From positions 1 to 33,320 of the forward strand of contig JAHKAY010000003.1 of NCBI GenBank assembly GCA_018825785.1: 33,320 bases of DNA, read 5' to 3'. Source of the DNA: Chloroflexota bacterium (GTDB taxonomy: Bacteria; Chloroflexota; Dehalococcoidia; JACVQG01; JAHKAY01). How positions within the stretch are numbered: the stretch's first letter is position 1; every line of letters starts with the position of its first letter. Positions 6,705-28,963 of the stretch are shown here, in pieces. The notes under the pieces are model-generated. The model made no database searches. It was not told where the DNA came from and saw only the letters and a program-made list of their open reading frames with translations. The position numbers and the translations under genes are program-made.

Positions 6705-9235
6705 GCTGCCTCCAGCCTTCTCACCGGGGGCCGGTAGCCCCGGAGGAGGGTGGTGTTCAGGGTCACCGAGACGGAGCTGGTGGCCATGAAGAAGGCGGCC
6801 AGCTCCGGGCTCACCACCAGGCCGAAGAAGGGATAGAGGAGCCCGGCGGCGATGGGGATGCCCAGGGTATTGTAGCCGAAGGCCCAGAAGAGGTTCTCCT
6901 TTACCTTTCTCATGGTGGCCCGCGAGACCTGGACGGCGGCCACCACATCCAGCAAACGGTCCCGGATTAGGATGACATGGCCTGTTTCCTTGGCCACATC
7001 GGTGCCCGCGCCGATGGCTATGCCCGAATCGGCCTGGGCCAGGGCGGGGGCATCGTTGATGCCGTCCCCCACCATGGCCACCTTCCTTTTCTCTCCCTGG
7101 AGCTTCCTTACCTCCTCGGCTTTATCCTGGGGGAGGACCTCGGCCAGCACCCGGTCAATCCCCGCCTGGCGGGCGATGGCCTGGGCCGTGCGGCGGTTGT
7201 CCCCGGTGAGCATGGCCACCTGGATGCCCAGGCGGTGGAGCTGGTCAATGGCCAGGGGGGCATCGGGCCTGAGGGTATCGGCCACGGCGATAACCCCCCC
7301 GGCCTTTCCATCCCTGGCCAGGAACACTACTGTCTTGCCCTCTGCTTCCAGCCTCTCCACCTGGGGGAGGAGGCTATCAATGGCGATGGCCTTCTCCCCC
7401 ATGAGCTTGCGGTTCCCCAGGAGGATACGGGCCCCGTCCAGGCCCACCTCCACTCCCTGCCCTGGGATGGCCTGGAAGGCCTGGGGCTGGGGGACATCAA
7501 TCCCCTCCTCCCGGGCCCGGCGGAGGATTGCCTCCGCCAGGGGGTGCTCCGAGTTTCTCTCCGCCACCGCCGCCAGCAGAAGCACCTCCCTTTCCGCAAG
7601 GCTGCCCCCCACCATATCGGTGACCGACGGCTCCCCCCGGGTGAGGGTCCCGGTCTTGTCAAAGATGACTGTGTCTACCTTGCTCAGGGCCTCAATGGCA
7701 TCGGCCCCCTTGAAGAGGATGCCGTTCTCCGCGCCTTTCCCCGACCCGGCCATAATGGCGGCGGGGGTGGCCAGCCCCACGGCACAGGGGCAGGAGATGA
7801 CCAGAACGGTGATGGACAGGAGCAGGGCGAAGCCGAAGACCCCGATGGAGCCCAGGGTGTAGGGGGAGAGGATGAAGCTGCTCTCGGGGCGGAAGAAGAG
7901 GCCATAGCCCGCGAAGAACCAGAAGACAAAGACCAGGAGGGCCAGGAGGTGCACCCCCAGGATGAAGTGGCCCGCTACATAGTCGGCCACCTTCTGGATG
8001 GGTGCCTTGGTGGTCTGGGCCTCCTCCACCAGCCGGATAATCTGGGCCAGGGCGGTCTCCTTCCCCACCCGCGTGGCCTGGAAGCGGAAGGCGCCCGTCT
8101 TGTTCAGGGTGCCCCCCGTGACCGGGTCCCCGGACTTTTTCTCCACCGGCAGGCTCTCCCCGGTGAGCATGGACTCGTCCACGGCCGAATAGCCCTCCTG
8201 CACCACCCCGTCCACCGGTATGCTCTCCCCCGGTCTCACCACCACCAGGTCCCCCACCTCCACCTCATCGGCGTGGAGCTCTATCTCCTGCCCCTCCCGC
8301 ACCACCCGGGCCGTCCTGGGCTGGAGCTTCATCAGCTTGCGGATGGCCTCGGAGGTCTTGCCCCTGGTGGCCGCCTCCAGGTACCTGCCCAGGACGATAA
8401 AGCCCGTAAGGAGGGCGGCGGACTCGTAAAAGGTGGCCTTCTCCCCCCCGAAACCCGCCCGTGGCCAGAGGGTATTGAGCACGGCGATGAGGTAGGCCGC
8501 CCCGATGCCGGTGGCATAGAGCAGGTTCATATCGGTGAGGCCCTTTCTCAGCCCCCGGTAGGAATTGACGAAGAACTGCCGCGCTGGCCCCGCTACCACG
8601 ATGGTAGTGAGGGCCCCCAGCAGATATGTATTGCCCAGGAACTCGGGGACAAGGCGTGGGAGGACCCAGTAGTCCCGGAAGGTGCCCAGCATGACGATTA
8701 TCCCCAGGGGCCAGGCGATGGCCAGGTTGACAAGCTGTCGCCTTATCTCCCTCTCCCTGGCCTTCTTCTCCTGCTCCAGGGCCGCCTCCCCCTCCAGGGC
8801 CTCCTGGGCCCCATAGCCCAGCTCCTGGATGGTCCGCTTTATCTCCCTTATCCCCACCACCCCGGGGAGGTATTCCACCCGGGCCGAGCCGGAGGCCAGG
8901 TTGACCACAACCTTGCTTACCCCCTCCAGCTCCCCCACCGCCCGGGTTATCTTCTCCACGCAGGAGGCACAGGTCATCCCGGTGACCCGGAGGAGGGCTA
9001 TCTGCTTTCCTACCCCGTAGCCTATGTCCCGCACCGCCTTTTCCATCTCCCTGGGGGATGTGCGGGCGGGGTCATACTCCACCGCTGCCTGCTCGGAAGC
9101 CAGATTCACCTGGGCCGAAGTCACCCCGGGCACCTCCTCCAGGGCCTGGGTCACATGCGCCACACAGGAGACGCAGGTCATTCCTGTTATGGGCAGAGCG
9201 ATGCGCTTCTTTTCCTGGGTTTCCCTTACCGGCAT
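6701..9235 (-). CDS. copA: Copper-translocating P1B-type ATPase
   Basis: CopA exports Cu(I) across the cytoplasmic membrane. The 844-aa protein has two N-terminal heavy-metal-associated domains, each with a metal-binding motif (GMTCVSC with C21 and C24; GMTCASC with C89 and C92). The membrane and catalytic parts follow: TGES (358-361) in the actuator domain, CPC in TM6 (482-484), DKTGT phosphorylation site (526-530), SEHPLA, and GDGINDAP (723-730). The last helices carry YN and MATSS, the pattern of Cu(I)-specific P1B-1 pumps. Length is normal for a two-domain CopA. It lies 55 bp behind csoR and overlaps the next small gene, so CsoR presumably controls it. Confidence 0.97.
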
Positions 9236-23166: not shown

Positions 23167-23175
23167 AAATCCTGG

Positions 23176-23247
23176 GCCAGGGTAGCTCAGGGGTAGAGCA
23201 GCGGTTTCGTAAACCGCCGGTCGGAGGTTCGACTCCTCTCCCTGGCT
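23176..23247 (+). tRNA. tRNA-Thr (anticodon CGT)
   Basis: A complete 72-base cloverleaf: acceptor GCCAGGG/CCCTGGC, D-stem GCTC/GAGC, anticodon stem GCGGT/ACCGC with loop TTCGTAA (anticodon CGT, reading ACG), five-base variable loop, and T-arm GGAGG-TTCGACT-CCTCT with one G-T pair. The 3' CCA is not encoded. It sits 59 bp in front of the IS3-type element. Confidence 0.95.
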
Positions 23248-23422
23248 GTATCTGAACCCTCCCCTCATGTTGACGGTTTGTTGACGGGCCTCGATGGGGT
23301 AGGTAGTGTAGACCGTCAGCTAAAATGGGACATTTTTAAGGCCACTAAAACCGTACACTTTGGGTAGTGGCGCAAGCTCCTGATGGGGTAGTAGACTAAC
23401 CTACCGACAGAAAGGAGCTAAC

Positions 23423-23830
23423 GTGTCCCAGGAAAACAAAGACAAAGCTAACGCTGCCGAAGCCAGGACGCAGGGTACCCGGGGCTTCATGCAGCAGGTC
23501 AGAGTGGCAGCGAGGCGCAAGTACACCCCGGAGGAGAAGGTCCGTATCGTGCTGGAGGGGTTCCGCCGGGAGGTGGGAGTAAGGGACCTCTGCCGCCGGG
23601 AAGGGATCAAACCGGGGGCCTTTTACGCCTGGACCAAGGACTTCATGGAAGCAGGGAAGGGGCGGCTCACCCGGGACGCCGCACGCGACGCCACGCGCCA
23701 AGAGATCGACGAGATAAAGCGGGAGAACGCTGAGCTCAAGCACCTGGTGGCTGACCTGTCATTAGAAGCTTACCGTCTCAAAGAAACGGCTATTCCTCCG
23801 CTGGGGAACCACGCCGGCGACGGCGCATGA
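23423..23830 (+). CDS. IS3-family transposase OrfA
   Basis: A 135-aa DNA-binding protein with a helix-turn-helix (KYTPEEKVRIVLEGFRREVG, then VRDLCRREGIKPGAFYAW, about residues 32-70) and a leucine-zipper-like coiled coil (EIDEIKRENAELKHLVADLSLEA, about 93-115). It starts at GTG 23423, behind AAGGAG. Its stop overlaps the OrfB start as ATGA, so OrfB is probably made by reinitiation and not by the -1 frameshift common in IS3 elements. Confidence 0.9.
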   Translation: MSQENKDKANAAEARTQGTRGFMQQVRVAARRKYTPEEKVRIVLEGFRREVGVRDLCRREGIKPGAFYAWTKDFMEAGKGRLTRDAARDATRQEIDEIKRENAELKHLVADLSLEAYRLKETAIPPLGNHAGDGA

Positions 23831-24786
23831 GCCCCGCGGAGAGGGCTCATGTCCTGGCCCAGGTGGAAAGCCAGTCCGGGTGCAAGCGACAGGCGCTGGC
23901 AGTGCTGGGGGTACCCAGGAGCACCTACTACCGCTGGCGACAGGGGCAACCCGGTTCGGGCTACAGAGGAAGGCCGTGGAACCGGATCACTCCTAACGAG
24001 GAGCGCCGAATACTGGCGGTAGCCCGGGAGTACCCTGAACTCTCCAGCCGGCAACTCTCAGCCCGGATTACGGACTACGAGGGCTTCTCCGTGTCCGAAT
24101 CGACGGTGTACCGCATTCTTAGAAGGGAAGGCCTGGTGAAACGCCTGGAAATGCAGGTTACAGCTGGCAAGGAGTACCACACCAAGACCACACGGCCCCA
24201 CCAGATGTGGGCCACCGACGCTTCCTACTTCCGGGTGGTCGGCTGGGGCTACTACTACCTGGTAACCGTGATGGACGACTATTCCCGCTTCATCCTGGCC
24301 TGGAAGCTGCAGAAAGACATGTCGGCTGATTCTCTCATCGAGGTGATTCAGGAAGCCATCGATGCCACCCACATGACCGAAGTGCACGTAGAAGACCGCA
24401 CCAAGCTGCTGTCGGATAACGGGTCTGGCTACTTGTCCCGCGTCTTCAAAGACTACCTGCACCTGGTAGGGATAAGGCACATCGTGGCCGCGCCCTTCCA
24501 TCCCCAGACCAACGGCAAGGTGGAGCGCTACCAGCAGTCTCTGAAACATGAGGTGAACCAGCTACCCTATGAACTTCCCAGCCAGCTGGAGAAAGCTATT
24601 GCCGACTTCGTCGACTACTACAACCACCGCCGCTACCACAAGGCCCTGGGCGACGTGACGCCCGCCGATGTCCTCTATGGCAGGAGAGAGCAGATCCTAC
24701 AGCGCAGGAAGGAGGTGCGAATACAGACACTTAACCAGCGGAGGGATTACAACCAGGGCCTCAAGGAGCTTGTCAGTGCCGCCTGA
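23827..24786 (+). CDS. IS3-family transposase OrfB (DDE catalytic subunit)
   Basis: A 319-aa integrase-core protein. N-terminal HTH_21-like part (ELSSRQLSARITDYEGFSVSESTVYRILRREGLVKR) is followed by the DDE domain, with D131 in WATDASYF, D197 in LLSDNGSGY and E233 in NGKVERYQQ; the last two are separated by 35 residues as in the DD(35)E class. The HPQTNGKVER and YYNHRRYHKALGDVTPADVLYG motifs are typical of rve transposases. The frame appears intact, so the element may still be active. Confidence 0.93.
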   Translation: MSPAERAHVLAQVESQSGCKRQALAVLGVPRSTYYRWRQGQPGSGYRGRPWNRITPNEERRILAVAREYPELSSRQLSARITDYEGFSVSESTVYRILRREGLVKRLEMQVTAGKEYHTKTTRPHQMWATDASYFRVVGWGYYYLVTVMDDYSRFILAWKLQKDMSADSLIEVIQEAIDATHMTEVHVEDRTKLLSDNGSGYLSRVFKDYLHLVGIRHIVAAPFHPQTNGKVERYQQSLKHEVNQLPYELPSQLEKAIADFVDYYNHRRYHKALGDVTPADVLYGRREQILQRRKEVRIQTLNQRRDYNQGLKELVSAA

Positions 24787-25116
24787 TCGGGCAAAAGTGT
24801 TCGGTTTAAAAAGTGTCCCATTTCGCTGATTGACAACAATACAGGTTTCATTGCTTCTCGGAGGGGGTTCTGCTCGGACATGGGCGTGTCCTACTAAACG
24901 AATTGACGTTCTGTTTTCTCACTGCACAAGCGCTCTGGGGGTGGCAAGGGCTGACGGCCTACATCGGCACTCACTAACGAAAAGTCAGATCATAAATACC
25001 AGAACCATCATATCCCTGAGGTCGCCTATGAGTCATCAACCCAAAGCAAGGAGAACCCAGGGCTCATTTTACTTCTTTTCTGCAAGTGGGGCTGCGAAGT
25101 AGAGAGGTTGGGTGCC

Positions 25117-26121
25117 TTATTGGAACTCTTCCAGGAAGGCTTCTACATTCTCGCCCAGGACCTCCTGGTTGTAGCCCCCTTCCAGGACGGCGAACCTCTT
25201 CCCTTGGCAGTTTCTCTCGGCAGCTTCTTTAAGCAATTTGCCAATTGTCCCGTAGTCTTCAACTTCAAATATGCGGCCCCGGCCTTCCTTGGCTCTATCA
25301 AAGCCGGCTGATACGGCCAGGATATCGTAACCTGTGGCGTTTTTGAGATACTCTTCCAGGGCTTGCAGTTGTGGAATTCTGTCTTCTTCCGGCTTGTAAA
25401 GGTAGGTGGCACCCGTCTCAACCCAACTTTCCCCGGGTGGGGGCCGTAGCGCATCTCTACCTACCATTGGCAGGTAATAATAGGTAACTCTACTATCATT
25501 GCGGAATATCTCCGCTGTCCCGTTTCCGAAATGAAGGTCAATGTCCACAATCAAGGCCCTTCCTATCTTCTTCTCATCCAGCAGCTTCTTAACGGCAATG
25601 GCGATGTTGTTGAAGTAACAATAGTTCGAGGAATTGTTGGGACTGGCATGATGGCCGGGGGGCCTGATGAGGCCAAAAGTGACCTCTCCTTTTACTGCCA
25701 GCTCACCAGCCAAAATGGCTCCGCCGGCAGAGAGGCTGGCAACCTCATAAAGCTGAGGGTCCAATTTGACGAAGTCAATAAGCCGTTGCGTATGGACCCT
25801 TCTCAGGTCTTCTTCGCTGGTCGGTTCGGGTTTAACAAAGTCGTAAAAGCCTTCAAGTTCTTCCAAGATGGCTTCCATTCTCCCCGGGGCGGCACCTGGG
25901 AACTGTGAATAGACCTTCTGATAGTCCGGGTGAAAGATTACTTTGATTTTGGTTGCCTGAGGGGTCAAGGGAGCGGGCACCTCGGGTGTAGGGGTGGGGG
26001 TAGGTGTGGGCGCAGGAGTTGCAGCCGGCGACGGTGTAGGAGTTGGAGTTGCTTTTGGACGACACGTGCATCCGGGGGTCAAAAGCAACAGCAAGAGGAC
26101 AACGACCAAATAGCGCCACAT
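25117..26121 (-). CDS. Histone-deacetylase-fold amidohydrolase, predicted lipoprotein, 334 aa
   Basis: Starts at ATG 26121, six bases behind GGAGG; the frame open to 26361 is not supported. A lipoprotein signal MWRYLVVVLLLLLLTPGC (lipid on Cys18) is followed by a Thr/Pro-repeat linker to about residue 55. The rest is an arginase/deacetylase-fold domain: RPPGHHA (H157, H158), NYCYFNNIAIA, DIDLHFGNGT (zinc ligands D195, H197), VSAGFD (D275) and LEGGYN (Y317). In most relatives the residue after the ligand His is a second His; here it is Phe198. These enzymes cleave acetyl-amide bonds of lysines, polyamines or similar compounds and are normally cytoplasmic, so an exported lipid-anchored form is unusual. 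Confidence 0.88.
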   Translation of the reverse strand: MWRYLVVVLLLLLLTPGCTCRPKATPTPTPSPAATPAPTPTPTPTPEVPAPLTPQATKIKVIFHPDYQKVYSQFPGAAPGRMEAILEELEGFYDFVKPEPTSEEDLRRVHTQRLIDFVKLDPQLYEVASLSAGGAILAGELAVKGEVTFGLIRPPGHHASPNNSSNYCYFNNIAIAVKKLLDEKKIGRALIVDIDLHFGNGTAEIFRNDSRVTYYYLPMVGRDALRPPPGESWVETGATYLYKPEEDRIPQLQALEEYLKNATGYDILAVSAGFDRAKEGRGRIFEVEDYGTIGKLLKEAAERNCQGKRFAVLEGGYNQEVLGENVEAFLEEFQ

Positions 26122-26444
26122 TGTCCACCTCCTCCGGAGGGATGCTGAAAATACTATCATAATTCTTGTCCAAGTATCGATTCCCCTGTGCCTGTTCACC
26201 GGAGTCGGCTGTGAACACGGCCATGAAACGAACTGAACGTCTGCCGGGTGAACCCTCGGCTTCCCCTGCGCCACCCCACCCATGGTGAGGTTGTGATGGA
26301 GGACCTGCTGACAACTTTGGGCTGGAGGCCCCGGGTAAGGAAATCGACCCCGCCAGCCCAAGAGCCGCTAGGGCCTCTCGAGAGGTGAAGGACGAGGAAC
26401 TCAGGAAGCTCGAGGCCTCCTATGATTCCCTCGAGACTCTCAAC
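26122..26444. other. Intergenic region upstream of the deacetylase-like gene
   Basis: Contains the Shine-Dalgarno site of the deacetylase-like gene and a minus-strand TGA-TAGTAT -10-like sequence at about 26150. On the plus strand, around 26300-26460, a frame reads EAPGKEIDPASP and later KDEELRKLEASYDSLETL, which looks like decayed coding sequence of unknown origin without a plausible start. Nothing else was recognised. Confidence 0.3.
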
Positions 26445-27690
26445 TTAGCTAGGGGCCCAGGCGATGACAAAGGCATCCCAGTTGCCAGCGATGGTCTGGC
26501 CAAGCATGTCGCCATTCGCGTCGCCCACCACGATGACTTGTCCTCTCCCATCCACTCCCACCCCAGAAGGCTTAACAGAGGGTAAGATGGTTGTGGAGGC
26601 ATTTCGGCCAGGTTGGAGAACTGAGCGAGAAGAGGAGCTGAACTGGCGTGTCCACAGCTCGACACCTGCCGGGCTGTACTCCCGCACAAAGCCATCATAG
26701 GCGCCAACCTGTTTCTGGCCGGGCAGGGCGTCCGCTGTCGCGCCCGCCACGAAGATGTTCCCTGCCCCATCCACCGCCACTCCAAAAGCCTGAGTAGAAC
26801 GGGGGGAGCCGAACTGGCGGGTCCACAGCTCTGTGCCCGCCGGGCTGAGCTTCTGCACGAAGGCATCATTGTAGCCAGCTTTGGTCTGGCCAGGCAAGGT
26901 GCCCATTAGGTGGCCCGCCACGATGATGTTTCCTGTCCTATCCACCGCCACCCCAAAAGCCTCATCCGGACCGGGGGAGCCGAACTGGCGGGTCCACAGC
27001 TCTGTGCCCGCCGGGCTGAACTTCCGCACAAAGGCATCCCAGGAGCCAGCGTTGGTCTGGCCGGGCAGGTCGCCCTCTGTACGGCCCGCAACGATGATGT
27101 TCCCTTCCATGTCTGCCACCACCCCATTAGCCCTATCCACAGCGCCGGTGCCGAACTGGCTGGTCCACAGCTCGGCACCCGCCGGGCTGAACTTCAGCAC
27201 AAAGGCGTCTTCCTTGTCAGCGCCAGCGTTGGTCTGGCCGGGCAGGGCGCCATCTGTGCCGCCCACCACGATGATGTTTCCTGACGCGTCCGCCGCCACC
27301 CCAAAAGCCTGCTCCGCACCGGAGGTGCCGAACTGGCGGGTCCACAGCTCTGTGCCCGCCGGGCTGAACTTCCGCACATAGGCGTCATCCACGCCAGCAT
27401 GGGTCTGGCCGGGCAGGGCGCCCTGTACATGGCCCGCCGCGATGACGTTCCCTGTTCCATCCACCGCCACCGCCAAAACCCCAACCGAAACGGTGTTGGT
27501 GAACTGGCGGGTCCACAGCTCGACGCCCGCCGGGCTGAGCTTCCGCATATAGGCATCCCATATGCCACCCTGGGTCTGGCCAGGCAGGGCACCCTGTAGA
27601 GCGCCCGCAACGATGATGTTCCCTTCCATGTCTACTGCCACCCCATTGGCCCTATCCCAACCGGGGGTGCCGAACAGGCTGCTCCAGGCT
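26445..27690 (-). repeat. Seven tandem ~170-bp coding repeats
   Basis: The propeller units are visible in the DNA as recurrent blocks such as GAACTGGCGGGTCCACAGCTC with small differences (shown without its last base they still recur seven times). High DNA similarity among middle units suggests recent duplication or gene conversion and makes copy number unstable in principle. They are coding repeats, not a CRISPR array. Confidence 0.75.
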
Positions 27691-27851
27691 ACAACAGAAG
27701 CAGGTGTAGCCGTGGGCGCAGGCCCTGGCACAGGTGTTGGGGTGAGTTCGGGTGTCGGAGTGGGTACACAGCCACCTACAATTCCTAACAACAGGAGAAG
27801 AATCGGCAAAAGCTGGGAACGCGCGGAAAACTTTGATGGACGCTGTCTCAA
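26445..27851 (-). CDS. SBBP-type beta-propeller lipoprotein, 468 aa
   Basis: Starts at TTG 27851, six bases behind GGAGG. A signal peptide with lipobox-like IVGGC (Cys28) is followed by a Thr/Pro-rich linker to about residue 52. The rest is seven tandem repeats of about 56 residues with the pattern LWTRQFG...GVAVD..GNIIVAG...G.LPGQT.AG..DAFVRKFSPAGxE, the SBBP (beta-propeller) repeat. Seven units suggest a closed seven-bladed propeller; the last is longer and more divergent (it contains VLQPGRNASTTILPSVKPSG). It is predicted to sit on the outer face of the membrane as a binding or scaffolding protein. Ligand unknown. Confidence 0.88.
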   Translation of the reverse strand: MRQRPSKFSARSQLLPILLLLLGIVGGCVPTPTPELTPTPVPGPAPTATPASVVAWSSLFGTPGWDRANGVAVDMEGNIIVAGALQGALPGQTQGGIWDAYMRKLSPAGVELWTRQFTNTVSVGVLAVAVDGTGNVIAAGHVQGALPGQTHAGVDDAYVRKFSPAGTELWTRQFGTSGAEQAFGVAADASGNIIVVGGTDGALPGQTNAGADKEDAFVLKFSPAGAELWTSQFGTGAVDRANGVVADMEGNIIVAGRTEGDLPGQTNAGSWDAFVRKFSPAGTELWTRQFGSPGPDEAFGVAVDRTGNIIVAGHLMGTLPGQTKAGYNDAFVQKLSPAGTELWTRQFGSPRSTQAFGVAVDGAGNIFVAGATADALPGQKQVGAYDGFVREYSPAGVELWTRQFSSSSRSVLQPGRNASTTILPSVKPSGVGVDGRGQVIVVGDANGDMLGQTIAGNWDAFVIAWAPS

Positions 27852-28450: not shown

Positions 28451-28963
28451 ATGCCGAAGCGGATAGTTGGTCTGTTTGTTCTTGTGGTAGTGCTTGTCAC
28501 TTCGGGGCTCCTTGCCTGTGTCGCCCCAGTGGCCACCACCCCTGCCCCTGCCCCTGTTGCCACCGGGACTCCTGCCGCTACCCCTACGAGGCCTGCGGAT
28601 ATCCCTACCGCTACTCCCACCCCTGTTGTTGTGATTCCCGGTGATATTACTCCCATTTCTACTACCTACAGGTTCGCTGGCCAGTCGAATCAGAACATTG
28701 ACCTTAAGGCAGGGGACATAGTGGAGTTGACGATTAGGGTCGTCGGGGGCGGCGTGTCGCTGAGCGTGGACGAACCCATAGCAGGATTTGGGGCCATGAT
28801 GCCCAGAAATATTGCCAATGACTCAACATCGAAACATGCGTTCGTGGCTAGGGTGGATGGAACCTATCGTATCATGATGCAGGCTGGGAACAACCCTATG
28901 GGCGCCGGGCAAATCACCCTCTCTGTGGATATCTACAGGAAAGGGGCCCCTGCCATCCCCTGA
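28451..28963 (+). CDS. Predicted lipoprotein with Thr/Pro linker, 170 aa
   Basis: Starts at ATG 28451, four bases behind GGAGG. Signal peptide MPKRIVGLFVLVVVLVTSGL with lipobox LLAC (Cys23), then an Ala/Thr/Pro-rich linker to about residue 58, then a domain of about 110 residues rich in beta-strands: TYRFAGQSNQNIDLKAGDIV, RVVGGGVSLSVDEPIAG, HAFVARVDGTYRIMMQAGNN, AGQITLSVDIYRKG. This pattern resembles GOLD-like or pre-peptidase C-type beta-sandwich modules, without a firm match. It shares the anchor-plus-linker design with the two lipoproteins to its left. Confidence 0.8.
   Translation: MPKRIVGLFVLVVVLVTSGLLACVAPVATTPAPAPVATGTPAATPTRPADIPTATPTPVVVIPGDITPISTTYRFAGQSNQNIDLKAGDIVELTIRVVGGGVSLSVDEPIAGFGAMMPRNIANDSTSKHAFVARVDGTYRIMMQAGNNPMGAGQITLSVDIYRKGAPAIP

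Follow-up and report, generated by a model that had tools for sequence, protein, structure and literature searches.

Enzymes of the histone deacetylase (HDAC) fold have usually been studied as intracellular regulators. Among the bacterial members, HdaH from P. aeruginosa and K. pneumoniae, Kdac1 from A. baumannii and the B. phymatum protein 5ji5 are classical deacylases of the class II type, with chains of about 300–380 aa. The protein described here, encoded in a 33,320-nucleotide stretch of DNA (the window) from a Chloroflexota bacterium, an anaerobe of the class Dehalococcoidia, shares with them the fold, the zinc triad, the double His and the GGY motif, and its structure model aligns with theirs with Z scores of 33.9–35.7 over 260–266 residues, at 26–30% identity. 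In contrast to these enzymes, it has a compact core, a Phe after the ligand His (a His in the 5ji5 alignment) and an Arg at the gatekeeper position, and it is predicted to be exported. Catalytic domain 1 (CD1) of HDAC6, an intracellular eukaryotic domain with full-length loops, is among its best PDB sequence matches. According to the sections of the survey PMC11532494 on which we draw, this domain has a basic gatekeeper (Lys, PKG motif). The window copy has a basic residue there too, Arg. The acetylpolyamine amidohydrolases (cluster 4) and HDAC10 have the same fold and zinc site as the window protein, but their extended L2 loop and Glu gatekeeper are absent from it. An enzyme of this fold that does not stay in the bacterial cytoplasm is Legionella LphD/Smh1; it belongs to another cluster and is secreted into host cells by the type IV route, and those sections do not present it as a protein with a signal peptide on the surface of its own cell (PMC11532494). 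In the limited library of literature that we searched, no relevant description was found of exported bacterial HDAC-fold members or of such enzymes on a bacterium's own outer surface.

The gene, whose coordinates had been given correctly by an earlier sequence-only reading that named no strand, is real and lies on the minus strand. Its features, together with the gene upstream, are as follows:

25117–26121, minus strand: HDAC-fold gene, 334 aa, ATG start at 26121, stop at 25117–25119 (PF00850, 1.7e-41)
26128–26135, minus strand: Shine-Dalgarno sequence GGAGGAGG, 6 nt 5' of the deacylase ATG, from the sequence
26068–26121, minus strand: predicted signal peptide, residues 1–18 (MWRYLVVVLLLLLLTPGC), with candidate lipid-anchor Cys18 and a non-canonical Pro at -2
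25951–26067, minus strand: Thr/Pro-rich linker, residues 19–57, a layout common to other candidate lipoproteins of the genome
25120–25950, minus strand: catalytic HDAC-fold domain, residues 58–334 (Pfam; pLDDT 92.3; Z 35.7 to 5ji5)
25648–25653, minus strand: double-His motif H157-H158
25528–25539, minus strand: D195-L-H197-F198, with zinc ligands D195 and H197 and the subfamily-type F198
25393–25467, minus strand: insert of about 25 residues (219–243), without counterpart in the three paralogs and mostly a low-confidence loop
25297–25299, minus strand: D275, third zinc ligand
25279–25281, minus strand: R281, gatekeeper position, Trp in 86/87 non-exported relatives
25171–25173, minus strand: Y317, catalytic Tyr of the GGY motif
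26445–27851, minus strand: candidate lipoprotein of SBBP beta-propeller type, beginning at a TTG and homologous to the propeller that forms a fusion with the C18 paralog

The window protein matched PF00850 with 143 bits against a cut-off of 27.9 (E 1.7e-41, Pfam) and 137 distinct PDB sequences at E≤0.001, so its assignment to the HDACs is not due to chance; an NCBIfam search gave no match near any cut-off. The structure model of residues 58–334, built with 76 aligned sequences, had a mean pLDDT of 92.3 and a pTM of 0.90, its only poor region being a loop at about model residues 161–190 (block pLDDT 46–64) that covers the insert. Superposed on 5ji5, the model gave Z 35.7 and rmsd 2.2 with 262 residues aligned (VIA-align). 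As modelled, the catalytic domain is a complete HDAC fold, in agreement with what the sequence-only reading had claimed.

Aligned with the canonical copy of its own genome, the core is shorter by about 30 residues in one stretch, YPGTG among them. We place the protein in a compact HDAC subfamily, a grouping defined in the present analysis and without an existing name, which is marked by a separate score cluster, the loss of the YPGTG-type loop and a residue other than His after the ligand His. A profile of seven sequences, including the window protein (whose own score is thus high by construction), found 29 compact matches in 26 of the 393 genomes of the class scanned, four of them in the genome under study, with scores of 257–440 bits, the next match scoring 160 bits. 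Compact copies were absent from the other four genomes of the order examined, and in a scan of 400 genomes of the phylum at E≤1e-33 the matches were confined to this genome and two others of its class, whose open frames are short. In a named-genome collection, the window protein as single query retrieved no relatives, and the alignment-based scan yielded at least 80 loci; those listed include Archaeoglobi, Bathyarchaeota, Asgard lineages, Syntrophaceae, Desulfobacterales and Syntrophomonadaceae, among other groups, and the lowest-scoring loci are canonical HDACs with His. The best PDB match to the compact profile is HDAC6, and judged by sequence none of the solved structures looks like a member of the subfamily.

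The non-exported compact relatives, 37–56% identical to the window domain in an alignment that also holds a few canonical rows, share with it the loop loss and the Tyr, Phe or Thr after the ligand His; unlike the window protein, they have no detected signal, and they carry Trp281 (86/87) and Gly166 (87/87). The Phe after the ligand His, which had been singled out as an oddity, is in fact the norm here: among 87 non-exported relatives this residue is Tyr in 37, Phe in 37, Thr in 12, Val in one and never His, counts that omit incomplete members, rows below 200 bits and the long-branch L118, with Arg. Phe198 was consequently discarded as a novelty. The immediate neighbours of the non-exported relatives showed no theme in 96 of 113 ORFs (17 omitted by hand, crude ORF calling, six loci without a recognised target) and gave no clue to function, the commonest family, NUDIX, accounting for only 5/96. 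In another genome, a second, different HDAC-type gene (L043, 6278–7162) lies beside the compact one (7143–7889), and similar second HDAC genes occur within loci L145 and L148.

Our results show that the active site is complete. The window protein has the D195/H197/D275 triad, H157-H158, Y317, D193 and N200, and the earlier numbering of D195, H197, F198, D275 and Y317 is correct; loss of the metal-binding residues, which that reading had considered, is not seen. The survey describes the catalytic site as a double His, Asp-His-Asp and GGY, and, where it treats the relays, Asn at the second position as normal for clusters 1, 3 and 4 (PMC11532494). D193, D195, H197, D275, Y317 and H158 are invariant in 87/87 relatives and in all four exported paralogs. 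We propose, with a probability of roughly 0.6, that this is an outward-facing, membrane-held zinc deacylase acting on external acylated amines. The fold, the intact active site, the signal, the four exported paralogs and their single origin are well supported by the sequences; anchoring, orientation, activity, substrate and the role of the propeller we infer. A deacylase of the compact subfamily would have been relocated to the cell exterior: its N-terminus would direct Sec passage, most likely followed by lipidation at Cys18, and the Thr/Pro stalk would hold the catalytic domain at the outer face of the membrane. There, Zn2+ on D195/H197/D275 would polarise the acyl carbonyl and water, H158 would serve as general base and acid, with the relays H157-D193 and H158-N200, and Y317 would steady the reaction intermediate. 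Since neither ATP nor NAD+ is required, such an enzyme could work outside the cell, taking acyl groups off external acylated amines to give acetate and a free amine for uptake, and the SBBP propeller, adjoining or fused, may serve to bind the substrate or to position it.

What could the substrate be? In pairwise alignments R281 falls opposite the Lys of DPKG in HDAC6 CD1, at low posterior and with the gap shifted in HDAC6 CD2, and with the Leu of DLG in 5ji5. In the gatekeeper scheme, as set out in the sections of PMC11532494 cited here, the position is Glu in HDAC10, which acts on polyamines, Lys in HDAC6 CD1, where it is linked to a preference for C-terminal acyl-lysine, and Ile in bacterial ApaH; polyamine deacetylases are marked by an acidic gatekeeper (PEG) and an extended L2 loop. 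On the basis of R281 and this scheme, we favour, with low confidence, carboxylate-bearing acetyl-lysine compounds over polyamines; R281 would select substrates with a carboxylate near the acetyl-lysine, for example free N-epsilon-acetyl-lysine or peptides ending in acetyl-lysine. Arg281 is not general among the exported copies, C19 having Trp and C7 Gly. An exported, active zinc deacylase with some other external substrate, be it acetylated polyamines, amino sugars, xenobiotic amides or longer acyl chains, seems unlikely to us, even if the HDAC fold is promiscuous, hydrolases of acetylpolyamine, dimethoate and propanil are among the close structural matches, and a compact core without the YPGTG-bearing loop perhaps has a more open channel. 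Polyamines, which the sequence-only reading had listed first, are disfavoured by a core that lacks both the extended L2 loop and the Glu gatekeeper and is basic at position 281 (PMC11532494, in the same sections), and no sugar-related gene adjoins the window copy.

The genome codes for five HDAC genes, the canonical C54 and the compact C3 (window), C7, C18 and C19. The C7 and C19 deacylases have their own signal, Cys and linker, and in C18 the deacylase domain is fused behind a lipoprotein-type SBBP beta-propeller. The junction APLAPQPTRI in C18 matches the window linker APLTPQATKI, and because of this linker remnant C18 looks like a fusion in which the deacylase lost its own signal. In a quick tree of 99 rows with weak inner resolution, the four exported paralogs group together in a single clade (SH-aLRT 98), and a single gain of export is inferred. 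Their pairwise identity is 58–69%, all four frames are open, and the dN/dS of 0.20–0.29 among them indicates purifying selection on a function. The window itself carries dnaA, pheS/pheT and other core genes, and other exported copies adjoin dap or aspartokinase/GHMP-kinase genes; with a listed contamination of 0.32%, a contaminating contig was judged unlikely. A plasmid search gave only matches below 60% identity.

The exported copies differ at residues of the substrate channel. At position 281, C3 and C18 have Arg, C7 has Gly and C19 has Trp, and the GFC channel motif reads NYC in C3, GYC in C18, GHC in C7 and GFC in C19, which, with its ancestral residues, may be the least changed enzyme of the four. 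Gly166, invariant in the 87/87 non-exported relatives, is Asn in the window copy; this change and the insert that the copy carries in its shortened loop may point to activity that has been modified or lost. In C7, Ser replaces the first His of the double-His motif (H157S), which could weaken catalysis, the zinc ligands, H158 and Y317 being kept. The C7 paralog (L040, 8953–7973) also has an insert of about 17 residues before a core helix. These changes of otherwise invariant channel residues in three of four paralogs, and the fact that the SBBP partners are repeat proteins, would suit exported proteins that are catalytically weak or dead and serve at the surface to bind acylated amines. We regard this as decidedly improbable, as the zinc ligands, H158 and Y317 are retained in all four copies, and the window copy also keeps H157 and the Asn at the second relay position found in clusters 1, 3 and 4.

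As for export, the sequence-only reading had described a lipobox signal and a Thr/Pro linker. A basic residue, a hydrophobic stretch and Cys18 are indeed followed by such a linker, and the same layout recurs in other candidate lipoproteins of this genome; the lipobox itself, L-T-P-G-C, is not a textbook one. Lipoboxes usually have Leu, Val or Ile at -3 and small residues at -2 and -1, and Pro at -2 is disfavoured. C7 and C19 have P-A-A-C, and neighbouring lipoproteins V-G-G-C and L-L-A-C. Given this T-P-G-C, lipid anchoring of the window deacylase is less certain than export, for which its predicted signal is clear and which is well supported by two paralogs with the same arrangement and a third behind an SBBP lipoprotein. 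Export also proved as unusual as had been suggested: a simple hydrophobicity rule, used in place of SignalP, detected signals in only 3 of the 161 distinct HDAC ORFs of the fetched loci (C3, C7 and C19) and in none outside this genome. The lipobox flag of that scan missed C7 and C19, which have Pro, and the signal of C18 was judged from the full-length ORF, its copy in the scan being cut at the start. In the main text of the surveys PMC11532494 and PMC13325672, 'lipoprotein' does not occur; 'signal peptide' occurs not at all in the first and six times in the second, where the occurrences listed deal with eukaryotic targeting, the evolution of signal peptides or methods, and none with a bacterial lipoprotein. 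This silence agrees with rarity and proves nothing.

Past the hydrophobic stretch, the first 100 codons hold only GTG48, TTG52, ATG82 and TTG86 as in-frame ATG, GTG or TTG codons. A full Shine-Dalgarno sequence is absent from the 20 nt 5' of GTG48, TTG52 and ATG82, and a start at ATG82 or TTG86 would remove the first strand and Arg81, invariant in 87/87 relatives; the upstream ATG, with its strong Shine-Dalgarno sequence, is therefore the credible start, and the cytoplasmic start after the linker that had been considered finds no credible codon. A cytoplasmic enzyme, its hydrophobic stretch and linker untranslated or its anchor facing inwards, would fit the imperfect lipobox and the signal-less family members examined outside this genome, but is very improbable given the strong ribosome-binding site at the upstream ATG with none before the later starts, three copies with signal and linker, and one behind a lipoprotein propeller.

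The window SBBP gene and the deacylase gene share a strand, with 323 bp separating the SBBP gene from the deacylase start downstream; the SBBP product and the propeller portion of the C18 fusion are 60% identical. A duplicated SBBP-deacylase pair is possible, and only that, since other SBBP proteins of the genome are equally close (59–65%). The C7 deacylase gene is oriented divergently to the genes of an NHL protein and of an SBBP candidate lipoprotein. With SBBP matches on only six contigs of the genome, it is striking that three of the four exported deacylases lie beside or are fused to SBBP, even though shared ancestry makes these cases dependent. Two further candidate lipoproteins without Pfam match (L040, 6307–7498), with a similar signal and linker, lie downstream of the C7 deacylase on the same strand, and in the window another (28451–28963; MPKRIVGLFVLVVVLVTSGLLAC, then Pro/Thr-rich) is encoded upstream of the SBBP gene, on the opposite strand. 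At 52.7%, the G+C content of the window deacylase gene is below that of the window (61.3%) and of the adjoining SBBP gene (63.3%). About 290 bp from the deacylase stop ends an IS-like element (23323–24823), whose 15-bp inverted repeats, 93% complementary, flank an rve-integrase transposase (23827–24786, plus strand); a tRNA-Thr (23175–23248) lies just before the element. Elsewhere in the window, an AbiV-type HEPN protein (PF18728; 13641–14279), possibly for phage defence, adjoins a Trp/Tyr-type tRNA synthetase gene.

The C19 deacylase overlaps dapA by ATGA, after dapB-asd-dapA, and C18 is divergent from a GHMP-kinase/aspartokinase pair. These two placements point weakly to lysine, being two of four and seen after the fact. 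At the C18 locus (L039, 6082–6422), a tRNA-Pro gene has its end some 270 bp ahead of the SBBP-deacylase fusion. No lysine riboswitch passed the threshold at the four paralog loci. The genome has a PF02784 (LysA-type) gene, so lysine auxotrophy was rejected as a reading and lysine scavenging is not obviously needed.

The kind of enzyme itself is known; the exported, duplicated and propeller-associated form is new. Tentatively, this single lineage may possess an extracellular deacylation system of four lipid-anchored HDAC-type deacylases, coupled to beta-propeller surface proteins as neighbours or by fusion and diversified at the gatekeeper, that act on acyl-lysine compounds. If this is true, acyl groups would be stripped from such compounds in the organic matter around the cell, supplying it with acetate and lysine. 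Four copies outside the cell under purifying selection would point to a nutritional or surface-remodelling role for the HDAC fold, and raise the question of which acylated amines occur in anaerobic habitats. The analysis also brings to light that anaerobic bacteria and archaea, with Asgard lineages among them, have a compact HDAC subfamily for which no solved member was found, and the series of gatekeeper and channel residues in the exported copies (W/F, R/Y, G/H) makes substrate selection directly testable.
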